From an uncultured bacterium (GTDB taxonomy: Bacteria; Cyanobacteriota; Vampirovibrionia; Gastranaerophilales; Gastranaerophilaceae): a stretch of 64,000 nt of DNA. The translations under genes and the position numbers were made by a program. Positions 4,105 through 45,825 of the stretch are shown here, in pieces. The notes under the pieces were generated by a model that was given only the letters and a program-made list of their open reading frames with translations, was not told the DNA's origin and searched no databases. Position 1 is the stretch's first letter. The number at the start of each line of letters is the position of its first letter. The DNA is taken from contig CACYTP010000002.1 of the NCBI GenBank assembly GCA_902777385.1, forward strand, positions 62,001-126,000, written 5' to 3'.

Positions 4105-6192
4105 TTACTTAGATAAAAATCCTTGCATAGTAATTTTGGTTGCCGGAGTATTTGTAATATTCTGTGGCTGAGAATTGTCATGAGTATTCTGTTGCATTCC
4201 CGATTGAGCTTTTAACGCCAAGTCTTTTGCTCTGGCATTACGAGTCATTCTGTCACATGTCCTTGCAAGCCATACCATGAATGCAGGAACAATCAGAATT
4301 GTTGACAGGAATGTAAACATGCTGTTATAGAATTTTGCACTCTTAACAAAGCGGTTCTTGCTGTTTTTGAATATGTTTTCAAATGTATGTAAAGCCTGCG
4401 TTTTTGCAGTGTCGGCTTCAGTAATATTCTTGAATGCGTTTTTAATTTCGTTATCATCAGCTACATCTTTAAGGTCTTTTCCAAGTATAGTCTTCAAGCT
4501 GTTAACCATTTCTTCGCTCTTGTCACGCATTAATAATTTTTTCAAATTACCGCCGTTATCGGTAATGAAGTCAAAGAAGCCGTTTACACCGCCCTTGAAC
4601 TCATTAATATATGTGTATTTAGACTCAAGTTCTTTATTTGTAAATACATTTATACCGCTAACAGGTGAGAAGTAATCTCTAATATATTTTTTGTAGAAAT
4701 TCTCATTGTGATCTCCAGGAGTATGGTTAAGTGCAAGTCCTGAAATCTTTGAGAATATCTTAGAAAAACCTCTTGATAATGCTTGGGCTGCAAATAATAT
4801 TGCTCCGAAACTTGTAACGTCACGGGTAATAGTTTCTTTTCTGTCATACTTATCAGGTGCATTCAATAATCTGGTAGGTAAACAGAAACCGTATAACAAA
4901 GCCATCATTGCTGATACTGACATTGATGCATCATCAAATTCAAAGTGATTTAAGAATTTCTTTAACTTGCTTGAATTCAAAACATATTCTGCCGTCTCAG
5001 TGAAGACTTTTTCCCTTCCGCTGAATGATACATCTTTCTTATTTGTGTTTAATGTATCATTTAGCTTTTCGGTTTTTCCTGATATTTCTACTTTATCATT
5101 ATTTCCATTGTTGTCATTTCTGTGTTCATGTGCAAATGCCGGATTTTGTCCCTTTAATCCCAGAGAATATAACTTCGGAATTAAAGCATAAAATCCTACA
5201 ACAGCACCCCACATACCGACATTTGACAGTATTCTTGAGCCTGTTCGTTTGTCAACAAAGGTTTTCAAAAATCTTGCAGGATCGAAGTTTTGATTTTTGT
5301 ATTTTTTTAACGCTTTTCCTGTCGTATCTATAACATCATCCGTAAAATCTGTCATAGTTGTCAGTAATTTTTTGAAGGATACACTTGTTTTATCAGCATC
5401 TTGTAATTCTTTTCCTGTTAATCCGAATTTTTCAGGATTAATAACCATTTCAATAGTTAATTCATTAGCAGACGGACTTAAATGACGTTTTTTAAGCTTC
5501 ATAAAGTCATTCAGCAAACTGTCCGTCAAGTCTTCAGGAGAACCTGCAACCTTTTGATTTGTAATCTTTTTCCATAAAGATTTTTTATTGCCTTTTGCCT
5601 GTTCAATTTCAATAGCCCTTGCAGCATAATCTTTTGCAAGTGTATCTAGTTCAGCCTCAGGCAGATTGCCTTCAAGTGTTGTATTTAATACATTCTTAAA
5701 TACATTATTGTAAAATTCTGTTTTTGTTTTAGCAACATCATCAAGGGTATTAGGATTTTTTGTCGCATAATCAATGAAGTTGTTACCTAAACCCTGTATC
5801 ATATTAATAGGAACATTATTTGCAGTTCCGGAATACTTTTTAATAAAGTGAAGTAATATTGCAGGAATAATGAAGGCACTAGGACCGCTCAGTATTTCTC
5901 GGATACCTTCTCTTCTTGCAAATGCCCAGTTGTAAGGACCCTCTTTCTTCCCTGTTTCTTTATTTACGGGACGGCGATTAATTCCTTCCAATACACGAGG
6001 ACCAGCCATGCCAAAGAAATCCTGTGCAATAAAAGACGTAATAAATCCGCCATTGGTTAGTGCATCTGCTACTGCAACAGGAATTTGCTCCAAACCCTGA
6101 AAGGATGGCTGTGCTGTATGTTTTACACTATTCCCTGTATTATTGTTTTTTCTGGCATTTAAATCAGCCGCTTTTATTGCTTGTATTGCCAT
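4105..6192 (-). CDS. Large F-x-G-tagged membrane protein, family member 1
   Basis: A 695-aa protein of unknown function that I group with the products at 19008-20600, 40196-41950 and 41966-43888. Shared layout: a short polar start ending in PSFQG (about residues 28-32), an early hydrophobic region, a long helical charged middle, a membrane segment around residue 325 (GMWGAVVGFYALIPKLYSLG), then a block with R..NAPDKYDRKETITRD (about 436-455) and FGAILFAAQAL, and a final membrane helix (TFLSTILIVPAFMVWLA) followed by a basic R-x-AK tail. There is no cleavable signal peptide. A TATAAT at 6234-6239 is a plausible promoter. It is probably an envelope protein; its role is unknown. Confidence 0.85.
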   Translation of the reverse strand: MAIQAIKAADLNARKNNNTGNSVKHTAQPSFQGLEQIPVAVADALTNGGFITSFIAQDFFGMAGPRVLEGINRRPVNKETGKKEGPYNWAFARREGIREILSGPSAFIIPAILLHFIKKYSGTANNVPINMIQGLGNNFIDYATKNPNTLDDVAKTKTEFYNNVFKNVLNTTLEGNLPEAELDTLAKDYAARAIEIEQAKGNKKSLWKKITNQKVAGSPEDLTDSLLNDFMKLKKRHLSPSANELTIEMVINPEKFGLTGKELQDADKTSVSFKKLLTTMTDFTDDVIDTTGKALKKYKNQNFDPARFLKTFVDKRTGSRILSNVGMWGAVVGFYALIPKLYSLGLKGQNPAFAHEHRNDNNGNNDKVEISGKTEKLNDTLNTNKKDVSFSGREKVFTETAEYVLNSSKLKKFLNHFEFDDASMSVSAMMALLYGFCLPTRLLNAPDKYDRKETITRDVTSFGAILFAAQALSRGFSKIFSKISGLALNHTPGDHNENFYKKYIRDYFSPVSGINVFTNKELESKYTYINEFKGGVNGFFDFITDNGGNLKKLLMRDKSEEMVNSLKTILGKDLKDVADDNEIKNAFKNITEADTAKTQALHTFENIFKNSKNRFVKSAKFYNSMFTFLSTILIVPAFMVWLARTCDRMTRNARAKDLALKAQSGMQQNTHDNSQPQNITNTPATKITMQGFLSK

Positions 6193-18312: not shown

Positions 18313-19008
18313 TTAGTTTTTCTTTTCTTCTGCTTTTTTAGGTTCTATATGCTTTTGTTCATTATAATCGTTTTTAGTTTCAGAATTTACAGCCGGTTCG
18401 TCTTTGCCTCTATTCATCCATTTTTCAACTTTGCTGGCTGCAGGAGTTGCAATAAACGGAACTATTATACGTTTACCAACTGTTGTTGCGGCAATTAATG
18501 AAGTTAATGTCGTGAATGCTGCAAATGCCGTATCTTTACGTTTTGCAATTCTTTCATTAATTTCTTGCTGGCTTATATGTTTTAATTTATCTATATTTTT
18601 TGTTACGGAGTGAATCATTTTGGCTGTATTTCTGTCAAATGCTTTTCCGAACAATTTATTAAACATTTTTGTCTGAACTATTTTCTGAGAAATTGTCATG
18701 TGCATTATAATTTGAGCTGCAATCATCAGACCGCCATTAGTTAAGTCTAATGCCGCTACAAATTTTCTCTTGTCATCAGGAATATTCTTATTATTCAAAC
18801 TTTGCCATACATACATTACGCATCCAAGACCATCCTTTGCTACAATTGAAAGGATACCTGCCCAGTTCATAAATGATTGCTTATCGTTTCTGTATGCCTC
18901 ATAACCTTTTTGCATAAAGTTAGATTTTTGCAGGTTTAGCATCGGATTTTTTACACAGGTGTTGAATACACTTTGAGCACCGGCTGAGATTTTGTTAATT
19001 GCTGCCAT
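18313..19008 (-). CDS. Hypothetical membrane protein coupled to the 530-aa F-x-G protein
   Basis: A 231-aa protein of unknown function with hydrophobic segments around residues 47-66, 87-105 and 165-190 and a charged tail rich in Lys and Glu. Its ATG shares one base with the stop of the upstream gene (TAATG), so the two are translated together. The stretch DKRKFVAALDLTNGG, then a membrane-like helix, and IIVPFIATPAASKVEKWM resemble blocks in the larger F-x-G proteins, so it may be a shortened member or a partner subunit. There is no signal peptide. Confidence 0.72.
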   Translation of the reverse strand: MAAINKISAGAQSVFNTCVKNPMLNLQKSNFMQKGYEAYRNDKQSFMNWAGILSIVAKDGLGCVMYVWQSLNNKNIPDDKRKFVAALDLTNGGLMIAAQIIMHMTISQKIVQTKMFNKLFGKAFDRNTAKMIHSVTKNIDKLKHISQQEINERIAKRKDTAFAAFTTLTSLIAATTVGKRIIVPFIATPAASKVEKWMNRGKDEPAVNSETKNDYNEQKHIEPKKAEEKKN

Positions 19009-20600
19009 TATTCTACCTCAACTTTCTGTGCTTCTGTAGGTTTTTCTACAGGTTTTGTATTTAACTTCATTGATGCAAATCTTGTTGAGACAGGTTGTGC
19101 TGTCTGAGGCTTGTTGATTGTAACTGTGTCTTTAGGTGCCATTTCAACAAGTTTTGCTGATGAATTATTATGTTTCTTGTTTGATAAATTCGGGAAGAAT
19201 ATATCCATAAATCTCGGATAAATCCAGTTCAATAACGTACATGTAAACGGAAGCATTGCCAATGATACAAATATTCCGGTAAACTGTTTGTACCAACCGT
19301 GATGCTTTTTGGTTCGTTCTATTAATCTGTTTGCTAATTCTTTTACAAAATCTTTGTCTAAGCTGCTGTTACTTAATCCTAAAGTGGCTTTTTTAGCTTC
19401 CAGTTGTTGTTTTATACCTTTAATGCTTGAACTTTCGCTAATTTCATTTTGTAATTTTTCATAAAATTCTACGAGTTCTGTAAGAGCTTTTTTATCCTTT
19501 TCAACTGTAGCTTTTACCATATTTTCAACTTCTGCATCGGATCTGATATCCTTATATTTATCAGCGTGTGCAATCATATTCTGAACTTTTTCCGATAGAG
19601 CTTTAGCTACATCTGAATATGTGTAAGCATTGTTTCCTGTGTTGCTTGCGACTTTTGCCCTTTGTTTAATGTCTTTTAATATTGCAATCATTTCGGCATG
19701 TTCAGGTTTGCTCTTTAATTCGCTTATTTTGCCTGCAATATATTTATTCAAATCTTTTCGACTTGCAGAATTATCAATATTGGTTTTTAAGTCTTCTAAT
19801 ATTGCATGTGCTTCTGTATAATTATCTCTATAGTATTTACTTCTCTTGGTTCTTAATCTGATAGTTTCTTCAAGTCCGTCTAAAGTATATTTGTCTATCT
19901 TTTTAAGTTTGCCGATTGTTTCTGAAAGAAGATTTTTATAAGTTTCATCGCTCATAGGTTTTGCAGTACCATCAGCATACTGATATACAGGTCTTCCCCC
20001 TTTGCTTTCATCAAGGAATGCTTCTGATAAAGCTTTCATTTGCTGTTCTTTGCGTCTTGCAACTTCAGCCTTGATTGTGTCAGCTGTAGCATTTTTAAAA
20101 GCAGGTTCTTTCATAACCTGTTTCTTAATCCAAGAGTCATCTTGGAATAAAGTCTTATTCATGGCTTCATCAAATTCACCCTTGTTAGCCCAATTGTCGT
20201 ACATTCTGTAGAATGGAGCTGTCATACCAACTTGGGTTGCAACTGCTAATACCGCAGATAAAGGCTGTCTCCATGCCGAGTATGTTCTGGTATCTTCATC
20301 AGCGTCTGACAGAAAGTTATATTTAATGAATACCGGTGCAACAAGACCTGTTCCCATTGCATTTATGATGATATTCATTATTTCGCCGCGTAACTTCTCA
20401 GCTACACCCAATTTTTTTACCATCCAAGGCATGAAACCGTCAATAATACCATCAACGCTATCTACAGCTACACTCGCTTTACCTGTAAAGTTTGGGGACG
20501 TTTGTTGCTGTTTGCCAAGTTTAGGTACAGATAACCTGTTCCTGTACGCACTTGAACTATAACCTTTTTCATCTACCTTTATCATACTTAAACTAAACAC
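19008..20600 (-). CDS. F-x-G-tagged membrane protein, family member 2
   Basis: A 530-aa protein of unknown function. SPNFTG lies at about residues 34-39. An early hydrophobic block (IINAMGTGLVAPVFIKYNFL) is followed by DADEDTRTYSAWRQPLSAVLAVATQ, which matches the D..D.R....R....F block of the other members but sits nearer the N-terminus. A long charged helical region (about 130-430) leads to a C-terminal membrane segment (FVSLAMLPFTCTLLNWIYPRF). The start is uncertain: GTG at 20600 abuts GGAAG, while the ATG at 20585 (MIKVDEK) has the Shine-Dalgarno 14 nt away. It overlaps the next gene by one base. Confidence 0.82.
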   Translation of the reverse strand: MFSLSMIKVDEKGYSSSAYRNRLSVPKLGKQQQTSPNFTGKASVAVDSVDGIIDGFMPWMVKKLGVAEKLRGEIMNIIINAMGTGLVAPVFIKYNFLSDADEDTRTYSAWRQPLSAVLAVATQVGMTAPFYRMYDNWANKGEFDEAMNKTLFQDDSWIKKQVMKEPAFKNATADTIKAEVARRKEQQMKALSEAFLDESKGGRPVYQYADGTAKPMSDETYKNLLSETIGKLKKIDKYTLDGLEETIRLRTKRSKYYRDNYTEAHAILEDLKTNIDNSASRKDLNKYIAGKISELKSKPEHAEMIAILKDIKQRAKVASNTGNNAYTYSDVAKALSEKVQNMIAHADKYKDIRSDAEVENMVKATVEKDKKALTELVEFYEKLQNEISESSSIKGIKQQLEAKKATLGLSNSSLDKDFVKELANRLIERTKKHHGWYKQFTGIFVSLAMLPFTCTLLNWIYPRFMDIFFPNLSNKKHNNSSAKLVEMAPKDTVTINKPQTAQPVSTRFASMKLNTKPVEKPTEAQKVEVE

Positions 20601-40195: not shown

Positions 40196-41950
40196 ATGAT
40201 TAGAAAAGTTAGTGTAGAAAAACCAGACAGTAGAATAAATACCCCGGCAGTCATTAGGGATAACAGCAAAATTGATAGAACGTCATTCACAGGACTGGAG
40301 ACGCTGTTAAAGTACGCAACGGGTGCTATGCAAAGATGCGAAGCAGAGCCGATGCTTAATGTTACTGTGCTGGATTTATCTACTGCTATTATTCCACGCT
40401 CAATCATTGAAACTGTTGCCGCATCTAAGGTTACTGATGAAAATGGAAAGCCTGTTTTGGATGAGAACGGTAAACAAAAGAGAAGATTTAATATACTTGC
40501 TGGTTTTGAAGCACTCAGAAGAGAAGGCTCCGGACTGTTAATTAACTGCATTTTACCGGGAGTTTTTGTAATTGGAGCTGCAAAACTCTTGAACAACCCT
40601 ATAATGGGTAGTAAATCAAACCTTGTTCATAACTGGGCAGATGACGCTACATTAAAAACATTAAACTCATATTATCAGGGTACAGGTCGTGAAAACTATA
40701 CTCAAATGATTAAGAAAATGTTTCTTGATTTATCAGGTGCTGATGGTAAAGAAATTGATAAATCCTTTGCTGAGATTTATCGAAAATCACCTGAAGAGTT
40801 TGATAAAATATTTGAAAATTTAGGTAAACTTGCTGATTCTGAAAAACTTGATAAAAAAGCTCTAAAAGCAGCAATAAACAATATTATTGAAAAAACTCAT
40901 ATTTCAGAGAATATAAAATTTAAAGTTAATAATCCAAAAGATTCATATTTTGGAAATTCTTTGGAATCGTTATTGAAAAATACCGTAGAAGTTTTGCATG
41001 ATGCGAAAAATGCAGGTATTGAATCTGCTGAAGATTTTGCAAAACACATGTCAAAAGCTCAAAAGCTTGTTAAATTCAAGAGTTGGGGCGGAATGGCTGT
41101 TATTTTACCGTTAGCATTATCAGCTCAACCTATAAACAGATGGATTACCCATAAAACCAGCGGTAAAAAAGGTGCTCCTATATATAATGATGACGAAGAA
41201 AGAATTTTGTCTGCGGAAGAAAAACGTAAGTTATTCGGGCAGAAGATTATTTCTATAGGTTCAATGTTAGGGTTATCATGGCTTTCAATGATGAAAATTC
41301 CTAACTTAGGAATGCTTGAATTCAAAAAATTCTTCCCGTCAATGGATCAGGCAAGAATTGTGTCAACTGCAACATTCGCAAGCCGTATGGGTGCATCTGA
41401 AGACTTTAATGATTTAAGAGAATCTACCGTAAGAGATTTGGCAACCTTCTCAAGCTTCTATTTCCTTGGTGATTATGCAGCTAAAGGTATTGCTACATTG
41501 ATTGAAAAAATTAATCCTAAATATAAACTTATAAATGACTTGAAGCCTCTGAAAGAGGGTGCAAATCCTCTCCAGAAGTTCTGGCATTGGACTAAAGATA
41601 CAGCATTAAAATCTACAAGTGAATTAGCTTCAGGTAAAGCAAATGATTTACGCTCACTTTGCCAGTTTGGTAACTTAGCGTTCTCATTGGTATCACTTGG
41701 TTTGTTTATCCCACTTATTAACAGAATACAAACGAATAAAAAAGAGCAGGCAAGAAAGGCTAAGCTTGCTCAGGAAGCTGCAACTGCGTCCGGTCTATCC
41801 TCACAGGATGCCGGCAAGATTCCCGCCGCAACCCGAACTACCGGAGCCGCGGGCATTGGGTCGAACGGTAAAACATCAGATGACAGCGAGTTCGGTATGA
41901 ACCTCATCGACAAAAAATCAACCGCATTTGGAGCATTTTTTAATTCGTAA
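40196..41950 (+). CDS. F-x-G-tagged membrane protein, family member 3
   Basis: A 584-aa protein of unknown function, first of a tandem pair. RTSFTG lies at about residues 29-34. FEALRREGSG is followed by a hydrophobic stretch (LLINCILPGVFVIGAAKLL). A charged helical middle leads to a membrane block at about 295-330 (MAVILPLALSAQPINRWITH), then SRMGASEDFNDLRESTVRD (about 393-411), FYFLGDYAAKG, and a last hydrophobic helix (LAFSLVSLGLFIPLINRI) followed by a basic tail. The final 55 residues are Ala/Gly/Ser/Thr-rich and encoded by strikingly GC-rich DNA. It lies 15 nt before the next paralogue. Confidence 0.87.
   Translation: MIRKVSVEKPDSRINTPAVIRDNSKIDRTSFTGLETLLKYATGAMQRCEAEPMLNVTVLDLSTAIIPRSIIETVAASKVTDENGKPVLDENGKQKRRFNILAGFEALRREGSGLLINCILPGVFVIGAAKLLNNPIMGSKSNLVHNWADDATLKTLNSYYQGTGRENYTQMIKKMFLDLSGADGKEIDKSFAEIYRKSPEEFDKIFENLGKLADSEKLDKKALKAAINNIIEKTHISENIKFKVNNPKDSYFGNSLESLLKNTVEVLHDAKNAGIESAEDFAKHMSKAQKLVKFKSWGGMAVILPLALSAQPINRWITHKTSGKKGAPIYNDDEERILSAEEKRKLFGQKIISIGSMLGLSWLSMMKIPNLGMLEFKKFFPSMDQARIVSTATFASRMGASEDFNDLRESTVRDLATFSSFYFLGDYAAKGIATLIEKINPKYKLINDLKPLKEGANPLQKFWHWTKDTALKSTSELASGKANDLRSLCQFGNLAFSLVSLGLFIPLINRIQTNKKEQARKAKLAQEAATASGLSSQDAGKIPAATRTTGAAGIGSNGKTSDDSEFGMNLIDKKSTAFGAFFNS
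41781..41870 (+). other. GC-rich island inside the 584-aa gene
   Basis: By hand count 57 of these 90 bases are G or C, against about one third in the surroundings. It encodes the low-complexity tail (SGLSSQDAGKIPAATRTTGA and on) and ends before the AT-rich final codons. Confidence 0.75.
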
Positions 41951-41965
41951 AGGAAAGAAATAATC

Positions 41966-43888
41966 ATGAAAGTAAAGCAATTAACCCCACAAATAGAACA
42001 GAAAAAATTATTATTTAGTCATAACAATGATGTAACTGCAAATATGACAGATGCTCAGACTATTAAATCAAAAGCTCCGTCATTCACCGGTTCAGCCGCA
42101 GCATTATACGCAATTCCTGCTGTATTTTTGAGATTTTTGGATACAAATCAGGCTTGGGGTGCAAATTTAGTTGATTTAGGCTCAATGGTTATTCCAAGAA
42201 CCGTTTATGATATGTCTAACCGTGGTATTCCTACAGGTATGGAAACCCTTAGACGTGAATCTACAGGTACGGCTAACCATGCTTCTGTAGGTTTATATGG
42301 TACTTTCCTTGGTGCTTTATTAGCTATGTCATTGAATAAATCATTTGAATTTAAGGCACATAAGATTTTTGCTAATAATGATACGTTGAATATTCTTGGG
42401 GATAATTGGTACAAAGCTTTACATTCAGGTTCTGCTGATCCGTTAAAAGATTATTTAAACGAAGTTGTATCATCAATTAAAGTTTATAATCCAACTAAAG
42501 CTGAAACTGTTGATGGTCTTGTTGCCATTGATGACGCTACAAAAAATAAAGTAATAGACAGACTGTATAATTTAATAAGCGATAAAAATGCTAAAGATAC
42601 AATTCAAGATGTTGATGTTGACTATATTAAGCGTTTGATTACAGCAAATACAGGCGGTGAAAAGAGCGTAATTCTAAATGGCTATCTTAAAGGTAAACCT
42701 ATTCAGGCTGATAATACTCTCAATACACTAATTGAAAATATCCATAATGTTACAAAAGCATTTAATAAGGAAAAAGTATTCAATAACTTTAAAAATGCCG
42801 CAAGTTTTGATGATGTAGATGTATTAAAAGGTTTGAAAAAACTAAACGTTAGCCGTTCTATTGCAGGGCTTGGTATGGCTGCTGCTATTGGTATGTCTGT
42901 TCAGCCTATTAATATGTATTTGACTAAAAAGAAAACCGGTATTGATGGGTTCCCTGGAGTTCCGGGCAGGAAGAAAGATAAATCTGTAAGTTTTAAAATT
43001 TTGAAGACTGCAATGGGTATTATTTTTGGTGCAGGTGCAATTTCTACTATTATGATTGGTGATAAGAGGTCTGCTGCTAAAGAATTAAGCAAAGCACTTC
43101 CTAAATCCGAACAATTAAAACAGTTTGTAAACAGATTCTTGTCAAAAATTCAGTTTAAAGGTAAAATGCCTACTATTAACCAACTCAAGTTCGTTTACGG
43201 TATGACTATTGTATCAAGATTTATGTGTGCAAGAGATAAAGATGAACTTAGAGAATCTGCTGTAAAAGATACTTTAGGATTTCTTAATTTGTTGATACTT
43301 GGAGCACTTGTTACTAAGGGTGCAACTCGATTATTCAATAAGAATTTAATAAATATGCCAAAGAATTCAGGTAAGGGTATAATAAGCTGGTTGAAAAATT
43401 CTTCGGTTAAATCAAGAGATGAAGTATTGCTTGAAACTCTCGGTAAACATGGTATTGATGTAACAAAAGACGGTAAGGCATTGTCTTACGGAAAATTGTT
43501 ACAGCAAATCAAAAACTTACCTGATGCCGAAAGAAAGGAATTATGGAAGAAATTAGGTACTCTGGATATTGCACAGCTTATTGGGTACGCATATTCAGGT
43601 ATATTCCTCGGCTACTACTTACCAAAGATTAATGCTACTATGTCTGCTGCAAATGAAGAAAAACGTATTGCTCGTGTAGCTAAAGCTGAAGGTAAAACTG
43701 TTGAGCAGGTTAAAGCTGAAATGGCTGAAGAATTGAAAAAGATGGAAGAAGCAGCTAAAAGAGGCGAAAAGTATGTACCTGATGAAGATAAGAAATCTGT
43801 ACAGACAAAATCCGAACAGCTGAATGTAGTTGAAAATTCTGTTTTAAAACAACAAATCGGTTCATTTACTTCAAAGTATATGAGTTAA
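41966..43888 (+). CDS. F-x-G-tagged membrane protein, family member 4
   Basis: A 640-aa paralogue of the preceding product. APSFTG lies at about residues 36-41. Shared blocks in the same order: VIPRTVYDMSNRGIPTGMETLRRE, a helical charged middle, the membrane block AAAIGMSVQPINMYLTKKKTG (about 305-325), SRFMCARDKDELRESAVKD (about 416-434), a hydrophobic NLLILGALVTKGATRLF, a C-terminal helix (IGYAYSGIFLGYYLPKINA) and a basic, coiled-coil-prone tail (KAEGKTVEQVKAEMAEELKK). AGGAAAG precedes the ATG. The 15-nt gap implies cotranscription with member 3. Function unknown; an envelope role is inferred. Confidence 0.87.
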   Translation: MKVKQLTPQIEQKKLLFSHNNDVTANMTDAQTIKSKAPSFTGSAAALYAIPAVFLRFLDTNQAWGANLVDLGSMVIPRTVYDMSNRGIPTGMETLRRESTGTANHASVGLYGTFLGALLAMSLNKSFEFKAHKIFANNDTLNILGDNWYKALHSGSADPLKDYLNEVVSSIKVYNPTKAETVDGLVAIDDATKNKVIDRLYNLISDKNAKDTIQDVDVDYIKRLITANTGGEKSVILNGYLKGKPIQADNTLNTLIENIHNVTKAFNKEKVFNNFKNAASFDDVDVLKGLKKLNVSRSIAGLGMAAAIGMSVQPINMYLTKKKTGIDGFPGVPGRKKDKSVSFKILKTAMGIIFGAGAISTIMIGDKRSAAKELSKALPKSEQLKQFVNRFLSKIQFKGKMPTINQLKFVYGMTIVSRFMCARDKDELRESAVKDTLGFLNLLILGALVTKGATRLFNKNLINMPKNSGKGIISWLKNSSVKSRDEVLLETLGKHGIDVTKDGKALSYGKLLQQIKNLPDAERKELWKKLGTLDIAQLIGYAYSGIFLGYYLPKINATMSAANEEKRIARVAKAEGKTVEQVKAEMAEELKKMEEAAKRGEKYVPDEDKKSVQTKSEQLNVVENSVLKQQIGSFTSKYMS

Positions 43889-43899
43889 ATAGGAATTGG

Positions 43900-45825
43900 C
43901 TATTCAATAATTTTGCCGTCAAATAAGTCCATTACCATGTTAACCTGATCTGAGTGCCCGACAGAGTGAGATTTCTTTTGTGGTTGTTCTTCTTCATGTT
44001 GTACAGCTTCTTCTGTAGCGGATTTTATATCTTCTTCATCAAGATTATTTTCTTCTTCTACAGTGGGATTGCTTTTGGGTGCTGTAACTTTAACCGGCGG
44101 CTTAGGTTGTGTAACTGCGGTTTTTACCTGAATGTCATCCGGCAGAGGAAGTCTGACTATGACGTTTGAATTTTGTTGATTAAACAGCTTGTCAACCGAT
44201 GCTATCACCATTGATTTTTTATTGCCGGACGTAAATTGATTAAGTAACATTTCATTTTTTATTGATAAAACTGTTTCTTCAGGTGTAATTTTAATCGGAT
44301 TAACCCATTGTTTCATCAAGGCTCTTGTAGGGGCTGAAGAAACATTGGCAAGTATGTCAGCCCATAGTGTTGAAATATCATTTTTGTTTGCAGGTTTTGA
44401 TACAGGCATAGGAGAGAAGTCCTCATTTTTCTCTTCTTTGTTATTTTCTGTAGTGTGAACTGCCGTTTGGGATTCTTTTTCTTCTGAAACATTCTCCGGT
44501 GTTTCACGTTGAGAAGATTTTTCTTGCATTATCGGCTTTTCTGCCTGAACTTTTGCTTCTGCTTCTTCTTTTTTCGCAATAAACTGTTCTTTTATTTTAT
44601 GTACTTCAGATATTGTTACGGGCTGAGGTTTGTTTGCGGTTTGTTTTTGCGTAAATGTTGTAGTTGGCTGTCCGCTTTCAAGCTTTGTAATTCTGTCTTG
44701 AAGTTCTGCAAGTTTGGTATTTTCCGTTAAATTTGCAAGATCAATAATTCCTACTTCAAGCCATAATTTAGGATTATTTGTGGTTTTTACTTCCTTTATA
44801 TAATTTGATATTTTATCCAGCAGTGAGGTTATTTGGTGCGTTTCCAGTGTTTTAACCTGTTCTGATATTTCTGTCGCCTGAGCTTCGTTTAATTGGGTTA
44901 ATTCCAAAATAACTTCTTGTCTGCAATTTTTTACTATAAGAAGATTCTTAAAGTAATCCAGCAGATTAGATAAAATTAGTGATGGCTCGTTCCCTGAGTT
45001 ATATATTTTTTCAAGTACTTCAATTGCTTCTTCGGGATTTGATTTGATAATTGCATCGGAAAGTTCCTTTAAAGTGTCGAAAGAAATCCTGCCGAGTAAA
45101 TTATTTATATCATTTGTGGATATTGCTTCCTTACCACCAAGAATACTCAATTGATCAAGAAGAGCTATACTGTCTCTCATTCCTCCTGCAGAATTTTTTG
45201 CAATCGTAAACAATGCATCATCCGTTATATTAATTTTTTCTTTATCTGATATGTACCGTAGGTGTTTTACAATATCATCCGTCGTAATGCGTCTGAAATC
45301 AAATCTCTGACACCGGCTTTTGATAGTGTCAAGAACCTTATGAACTTCTGTTGTTGCAAGTATAAAAATAACATTGGCAGGAGGTTCTTCCAACGTCTTT
45401 AAGAGTGCATTAAAAGCCTGAGGAGTCAGCATGTGAACTTCGTCAATAATATATATTTTGTAGCGGCTCTGGACGGGTGCCAATACTACTTTTTTAATAA
45501 TTTCGTCGGCGTCATTTACTGAACGATTGCTGGCCGCATCTATTTCAATAACGTCTATTGGTATTGAATTCGTTATATTATTACAGTTCGGGCATTCGTT
45601 ACATGGTGTTATTGTCGGACCATTTTCACAGTTAAGCGACTTTGCGAAAATTCTTGCCGTAGAGGTTTTTCCGGTTCCTCTGGGACCTGTAAACAAATAT
45701 GCGTGTGAAATTTTATTCATTTTGATTGCATTTGTTAACGCATTTTTAATATGTTCCTGCCCTACAATTTCTTCTAATCTTTGCGGACGATATTTTCTAT
45801 ATAGCGGTATGTATTTTTCTTCCAT
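43900..45825 (-). CDS. dnaX: DNA polymerase III gamma/tau subunit
   Basis: DnaX is the clamp-loader motor of the replisome. The 641-aa protein begins with an AAA+ module: Walker A GPRGTGKTSTARIFAK, a zinc-binding CENGPTITPCNECPNC loop, Walker B IYIIDEVHML, sensor 1 FILATTE and SRC (KSRCQRFDF). A collar domain (about 245-360) and a long charged C-terminal tau-like region complete it. A TGA-TATAAT extended -10 ends 9 nt before the ATG and no Shine-Dalgarno is present, so the mRNA may be nearly leaderless. I see no obvious A-rich frameshift slip site, but did not exclude one. It converges on member 4 with an 11-nt gap. Confidence 0.96.
   Translation of the reverse strand: MEEKYIPLYRKYRPQRLEEIVGQEHIKNALTNAIKMNKISHAYLFTGPRGTGKTSTARIFAKSLNCENGPTITPCNECPNCNNITNSIPIDVIEIDAASNRSVNDADEIIKKVVLAPVQSRYKIYIIDEVHMLTPQAFNALLKTLEEPPANVIFILATTEVHKVLDTIKSRCQRFDFRRITTDDIVKHLRYISDKEKINITDDALFTIAKNSAGGMRDSIALLDQLSILGGKEAISTNDINNLLGRISFDTLKELSDAIIKSNPEEAIEVLEKIYNSGNEPSLILSNLLDYFKNLLIVKNCRQEVILELTQLNEAQATEISEQVKTLETHQITSLLDKISNYIKEVKTTNNPKLWLEVGIIDLANLTENTKLAELQDRITKLESGQPTTTFTQKQTANKPQPVTISEVHKIKEQFIAKKEEAEAKVQAEKPIMQEKSSQRETPENVSEEKESQTAVHTTENNKEEKNEDFSPMPVSKPANKNDISTLWADILANVSSAPTRALMKQWVNPIKITPEETVLSIKNEMLLNQFTSGNKKSMVIASVDKLFNQQNSNVIVRLPLPDDIQVKTAVTQPKPPVKVTAPKSNPTVEEENNLDEEDIKSATEEAVQHEEEQPQKKSHSVGHSDQVNMVMDLFDGKIIE

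Follow-up and report, generated by a model that had tools for sequence, protein, structure and literature searches.

What two large adjacent genes of an uncultured gut bacterium encode, and whether their products work together, is the question raised by the locus described here. The genes, named P1 (40196..41950, plus strand) and P2 (41966..43888, plus strand), lie in a stretch of 64,000 nucleotides (the window; contig CACYTP010000002.1 of assembly GCA_902777385.1, positions 62,001 to 126,000) from a member of the Gastranaerophilaceae, class Vampirovibrionia. They encode proteins of 584 and 640 amino acids and are separated by 15 nt, and both open reading frames are found exactly where a preliminary description of this DNA had placed them. 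That description matched the two proteins to no named family and suggested a working complex, perhaps a heteromer. Judged from their sequences, P1 and P2 are full-length paralogues, and each protein consists of two apparently related modules, which probably arose from an ancient duplication. New here are this two-module build with its split and fused forms, further copies of the family, including the gene P4 in the same window, and a short motif linked to the modules.

Paralogy and distribution of the tandem genes

In a BLASTP comparison P1 and P2 match each other with an E-value of 4e-14. A profile-profile comparison was done with hhalign using 76 P2 and 74 P1 sequences; it gave a probability of 100 and an E-value of 2.5e-46 over 459 columns, reaching from the N-terminal tag to beyond the last helix, and thus supports homology along the full length. 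The motifs that had been reported for both proteins are all present. The tag SFTG occupies residues 30-33 of P1 (40283..40294) and 39-42 of P2 (42080..42091), and the IPR block follows at residues 66-68 and 76-78, respectively. The block E-[AT]-L-R-R-E reads EALRRE in P1 and ETLRRE in P2, the block QPIN-x-[WY]-[IL]-T-x-K reads QPINRWITHK and QPINMYLTKK, and D-x-x-[DE]-LRES-[TA]-V-[RK]-D reads DFNDLRESTVRD in P1 and DKDELRESAVKD in P2. Both proteins also have the final hydrophobic helix and, behind it, the basic tail. The "long charged helical middle" exists as a region, but it is predicted to form a compact, variable domain of helices and short strands. Likewise, the two genes do form a pair of paralogues as described, but the family is larger than this pair: P4 and a further gene, P3, had been overlooked.

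The spread of the family was determined with a 15-row profile in 289 sampled genomes of the class at E ≤ 0.001, where any paralogue may count as a match. Matches were obtained in 215 of the 289 genomes. In the own family 199 of 205 listed genomes match, about 184 of them below 1e-50 (table counted by hand). No match outside the class is listed for a phylum-wide sample of 291 genomes, so far as these samples reach, and the family has so far been found only in Vampirovibrionia. A viral origin was rejected, as no relative was found in the viral contigs of IMG/VR and no fold match in BFVD at E ≤ 0.001. Many of the named match records are labelled "Candidatus Gastranaerophilales" or "Melainabacteria". 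Clear P1-P2 pairs also occur in the public records L055, L083 and L093, which bear the titles Clostridiaceae or Fusobacterium sp. (including CAG:439) but look like misassigned Gastranaerophilales genomes.

In each of the 80 named loci, which were selected by their P2 match, P1 immediately precedes P2, so both genes are real and under constraint. The gap measures 3-25 nt in 78 of 81 loci, the window included. Conservation of the tandem order across relatives is thereby supported. In a tree calculated with a quick method P1 and P2 separate with a support of 99, and the upstream genes of family f6 fall on the P1 side; the P1/P2 duplication therefore predates the split of these families. The constant order and the short gaps favour an obligate P1-P2 heteromer in which neither subunit works alone, as does the finding that P1 is missing, too, in 15 of 15 genomes in which any P2-type match is weak or absent. 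However, P1 stands alone in three genomes of the genera g36 and g40 (G176, G199 and G229), where unrelated genes follow it, and outside the own family and f6 copies are often dispersed, with single copies scattered in other families of the order. Because of the lone P1 genes and the dispersed copies we consider an obligate heteromer clearly unlikely. The pair is usual, not obligatory; of the proposed heteromeric complex the conserved tandem order holds, whereas obligate pairing is not supported.

Two-module organization in fused and split relatives

Structures were predicted with AlphaFold2. The P2 model (76 sequences) reached a predicted local distance difference test score (pLDDT) of 85.3 and a predicted TM-score (pTM) of 0.80, the P1 model (74 sequences) values of 78.5 and 0.72. 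In both models the elements follow in the same order: a disordered, tagged N-terminus, a helix, the helices a1 and b1, an inserted domain of helices and strands, the long helix c1, a hydrophobic helix, the helices a2 and b2, a small insert, the long helix c2 and a tail. The identical order in two independent models agrees with the hhalign result and supports the shared layout, and with it a shared predicted fold.

Both halves appear to follow one plan. A polar helix a ends with [PS]R, helix b opens with (R)E-x3-[RK]-[DE]-x2-G and then becomes hydrophobic, and a variable insertion leads to a hydrophobic helix c, which ends near P-x-N-x-x-[TM]. In P2 the predicted helices a1-b1 of module 1 cover residues 61-127 (42146..42346, plus strand) with the motif IPRT..D...R.....GxETxRRExxG, and the part from about residue 103 to 124 is hydrophobic. 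Helix c1 is predicted at residues 285-324 (42818..42937, plus strand) and ends with QPINMYLTKKKTG. Between the modules a hydrophobic helix, found in the fused P1/P2 type, spans residues 341-363 (42986..43054, plus strand). In module 2 the helices a2-b2 (residues 404-457; 43175..43336, plus strand) carry TIxSR....RDxxELRESxVKDxLG, and helix c2 (residues 520-560; 43523..43645, plus strand) carries GxxxPKINxxM, followed by the basic tail. The corresponding elements of P1, also on the plus strand, are predicted at residues 51-137 (a1-b1; 40346..40606), 278-322 (c1, with QPINRWITHK; 41027..41161), 383-439 (a2-b2; 41342..41512) and 480-515 (c2; 41633..41740).

Conservation is concentrated in this helical scheme. 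Near-invariant positions fall within helix a, b or c or the short links adjoining them, and they are largely polar, charged or glycine. In a1-b1 of P2 alone, 23 positions show at least 97% identity, most of them polar or glycine. The variable inserted domain of P2 (residues 128-284; 42347..42817, plus strand), predicted as helices and short strands, contains no position at this level in the alignment. The conserved polar and charged residues of the helices, together with their lack in the insertion, therefore speak for a helical core that has a function rather than for a mere anchor.

The similarity of the two modules was evaluated by profile comparison against shuffled columns. The end of c1 (QPxNxYLTKKKTG) matches the end of c2 (GIPKLNIYMTNK), and the helix-c block of P2 scored 30.5 (E-value 1.7e-6), whereas 60 shuffles of the columns gave 18.9 or less. 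When the split relatives described below were added, the score was 31.6 versus 14.9 in shuffles. For the a-b block the combined profile scored 22.0 versus 17.1, and (R)E-x3-[RK]-[DE]-x2-G stands in register between the modules. Two comparisons speak against a repeat: the a-b block from split-only profiles (15.0) stays below its shuffles (20.7), and the N versus the C module of P4 (21.7) barely exceeds them (21.1). Because of these two results an internal duplication appears likely and supported, short of conclusive.

Further evidence for separate modules comes from relatives in which they are encoded by separate genes. In the sister families f9 and f15 of the same class the P2-like protein is represented by two adjacent genes, one for an N-half of 467-557 amino acids and one for a C-half of about 230-290 amino acids, where complete. 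In eight genome loci these genes overlap, by 7 nt in one of them and by 4 nt in the rest. P4 (4105..6192, minus strand; 695 amino acids) is a single fused gene in the window, whereas other genomes carry it as two neighbouring genes. Its N module matches the N module of P1/P2 in hhalign with a probability of 98.5 and an E-value of 1.9e-15, its C module the C module with 98.3 and 1.5e-14, and by these profiles P4 is a member of the P1/P2 family. The fused form occurs in the own genus and in several further genera, the split form, also within this order, in six genomes (G013, G019, G026, G028, G031 and G033). The same module boundary is therefore seen in two subfamilies, P2-like proteins and P4. 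P3 is a further copy elsewhere in the own genome (G000:C2:180.2-181.7 kb). Both the N- and the C-module profile, by which we define the family, match the P1-P2 pair, P3 and P4.

One more candidate, P5, was considered within the window. It is an adjacent pair (18313-19008 and 19008-20600, minus strand) which is kept in relatives; its first protein carries an N-terminal NFTG tag, and the layout recalls a split family member. The pair (18313-20600) stays a candidate member, as the best profile match had a probability of 31% only.

The F-x-G motif

The SFTG tag is one form of a more general F-x-G motif. Within the first 75 residues FxG is present in 78 of 81 P1 and 76 of 81 P2 proteins, and F40 of P2 is invariant in the alignment. 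Most of the split halves carry F-x-G or F-G. As background, F-x-G was counted in 22% and F-x-G or F-G-x in 35% of 549 sampled genes.

The position of the motif in P4 is informative. The window protein has a first tag, SFQG (6094..6105, minus strand), and a second, internal one, SFSG (residues 389-392; 5017..5028, minus strand), at the start of module 2. An internal F-x-G at the module junction is found in all 15 fused P4 proteins. In 13 of the 15 it lies 28 residues ahead of the module-2 landmark, in the others 26 and 30, while the hydrophilic linker ahead of it ranges in length between 33 and 84 residues, where measurable. The near-fixed distance to module 2 therefore ties the motif to the module and not solely to the start of the chain. 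It had been described as an N-terminal tag; this is correct for P1 and P2, but F-x-G precedes modules in general and is not restricted to the N-terminus.

A role of F-x-G as a genome-wide N-terminal signal is not supported, since the plain motif shows no enrichment at N-termini (p = 0.54 and 0.12). A stricter pattern reached p = 0.04, which is too marginal for such a claim. A polar N-terminus followed by F-x-G or F-x-A was also noted in several other proteins of the own genome and a related one (L128:19321-19827, L132:912-1841, L136:18270-19496, L166:7508-8503, L170:13201-15570 and L179:325-1824); in simple tests the enrichment of such N-termini is non-significant or marginal.

Membrane character and possible function

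In agreement with the preliminary description, no named family was found for P1 and P2 at a meaningful level in Pfam, NCBIfam, PHROG, PADLOC or PDB. The best values were 0.13 in Pfam (PF10669, P2), 0.014 in NCBIfam (NF002824, P1; far under the cut-off) and 0.12 in PHROG (PHROG 7920, P1). A Pfam scan of the 76 P2 and 74 P1 proteins yielded scattered single matches only (E 0.0004-0.01), a sequence search of PDB with single proteins and profiles gave no match, and none of the PADLOC hidden Markov models for anti-phage defence matched P1, P2 or P4 at E ≤ 1. By structure, Foldseek found no PDB match to the P2 model at E ≤ 0.001. VIA-align returned scattered weak helical matches, the best with Z 6.3 over 51 residues (P2) and Z 4.6 over 76 residues (P1); according to the tool's own note, a weak result of this kind does not prove a new fold. 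As far as the tools used here reach, the family is undescribed.

The proteins are probably embedded in the membrane, as had been assumed. Charge-poor hydrophobic stretches of 19 residues occur at equivalent positions in P1 and P2, and helix c of the split N-halves has a 19-residue hydropathy of 1.5-2.6. The linker between the modules differs among the subfamilies: its maximum 19-residue hydropathy has a median of 1.49 in P2 and 1.33 in P1, compared with 0.47 in the P4 protein of the window and at most 0.41 in the tails of the split N-halves. Membrane insertion of P1 and P2 is supported, short of conclusive. That they are instead helical proteins, soluble or peripheral, built around a hydrophobic core would fit the moderate hydrophobicity of several core helices and a signal sequence not being evident by eye. 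The charge-poor stretches at equivalent places in both paralogues and the hydropathy of helix c in the split relatives argue against this, and we consider it very unlikely.

Two known systems invite comparison with the family. In the Fluc/FEX and SMR/EmrE proteins, homologous membrane modules occur as a gene pair or as a single fused polypeptide (PMC3755343, PMC3962082, PMC9574504), which is comparable to the modules split in f9/f15 and P4 and fused in P1, P2 and P4 of the own genus. Some fusions of the Fluc and SMR type contain an extra hydrophobic linker helix, like the "inversion linker" of eukaryotic Fluc (PMC3755343); in fused Fluc channels this linker gives the second module the inverted orientation (PMC3755343). 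In contrast, there is no sequence match, and no family of this kind turned up when P1, P2 and their orthologues were scanned against Pfam. The modules described here are also much larger, with a predicted soluble insertion and an F-x-G ahead of the modules, and the family has both hydrophilic (P4) and hydrophobic (P1/P2) linkers. Membrane pyrophosphatases (M-PPase) recur among the weak structural matches to P2 and P1, the best of them being 6qxa_D (Z 5.2, root-mean-square deviation 3.8, 129 aligned residues), but this Z lies within the tool's unreliable range for helical models, the identity is low, and the Pfam and PDB sequence searches gave no match.

The P1-P2 pair is flanked on one side by the genes for rsmE and a CCA-tRNA nucleotidyltransferase. 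On the other side a convergent ATP-synthase operon follows in about 50 relatives (flanks of L040-L119), and in the own genome a dnaX-like gene (43900-45825) takes this place instead. A function derived from these neighbours was rejected, as the flanking genes are housekeeping genes. A scan for promoters and terminators showed promoter-like sites at chance level and no terminator. P3 adjoins a gene for an iron-dependent repressor of the DtxR/MntR type (Pfam PF01325, PF02742) in the own genome and several relatives (L010:7467-7955 and L010:8176-9711), and in several genomes P3 is also located beside a gene which by eye resembles an SGNH hydrolase.

We tentatively favour the view, while rating its chance somewhat below even, that P1 and P2 are fused two-module proteins of the inner membrane which form a pseudo-symmetric, lineage-specific complex, perhaps a transporter. 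The modules would have arisen by duplication; in some lineages separate, overlapping genes encode them, whose products presumably cooperate. Gene fusion and a second duplication would have led to the P1-P2 operon. Within each protein the modules would pack as a pseudo-symmetric unit with conserved charged residues where helices a and b meet. We further infer that P1 and P2 would as a rule form one assembly, which would carry a small solute, an ion or a lipid through the membrane, and that F-x-G would serve to dock every module to one shared partner. Several results weigh against this proposal. There is no convincing structural match to a transporter, the flanks of P1-P2 give no functional hint, P1 occurs alone in the three genomes mentioned, and several of the predicted membrane helices are only moderately hydrophobic. 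In addition, the positive-inside pattern of the loop charges is uninformative on the topology of P1 and P2, because nearly all loops are net positive.

Alternatively, P1, P2 and their relatives could be anchored proteins with a structural or assembly role in the envelope that transport nothing, the modules holding the membrane while the variable insertion and the F-x-G motifs recruit partners. An F-x-G near-fixed from module 2 within a hypervariable linker is what a docking site would look like, a similar N-terminal tag is seen on several other proteins of the lineage, and the Pfam and NCBIfam scans of P1 and P2 detected no energising domain. However, the residues conserved most strongly are polar and charged and belong to the helical core instead of the insertion, as would be expected of a functional site more than of a mere anchor, and we regard a scaffold as somewhat unlikely. 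The repressor gene beside P3, found in 6 of 30 P3-type loci and additionally in G281, would agree with a family that transports or senses a divalent metal. Handling of metal ions nevertheless seems most improbable, since adjacency alone is weak and the repressor is missing at most P3-type loci and is not a neighbour of P1-P2.

Few of these gut bacteria have been cultured, and little has been learned of the biology particular to their lineage. A multi-copy membrane family which is present in nearly all sampled genomes of this bacterial family, was not found in those sampled outside the class and has no known relative speaks for an important envelope function peculiar to the lineage. A bolder and fairly unlikely possibility is a superfamily with an unseen fold, in which duplicated F-x-G-led modules form a pseudo-symmetric machine with several paralogues per cell and the motif marks a wider set of clients sharing one partner. 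Such a superfamily, if real, would occur solely in the non-photosynthetic class that is sister to Cyanobacteria. The near-fixed F-x-G within a hypervariable linker offers a concrete handle for a partner search, and the split and fused forms with hydrophilic and hydrophobic linkers make the evolution of two-fold pseudo-symmetric membrane proteins directly testable in this family.

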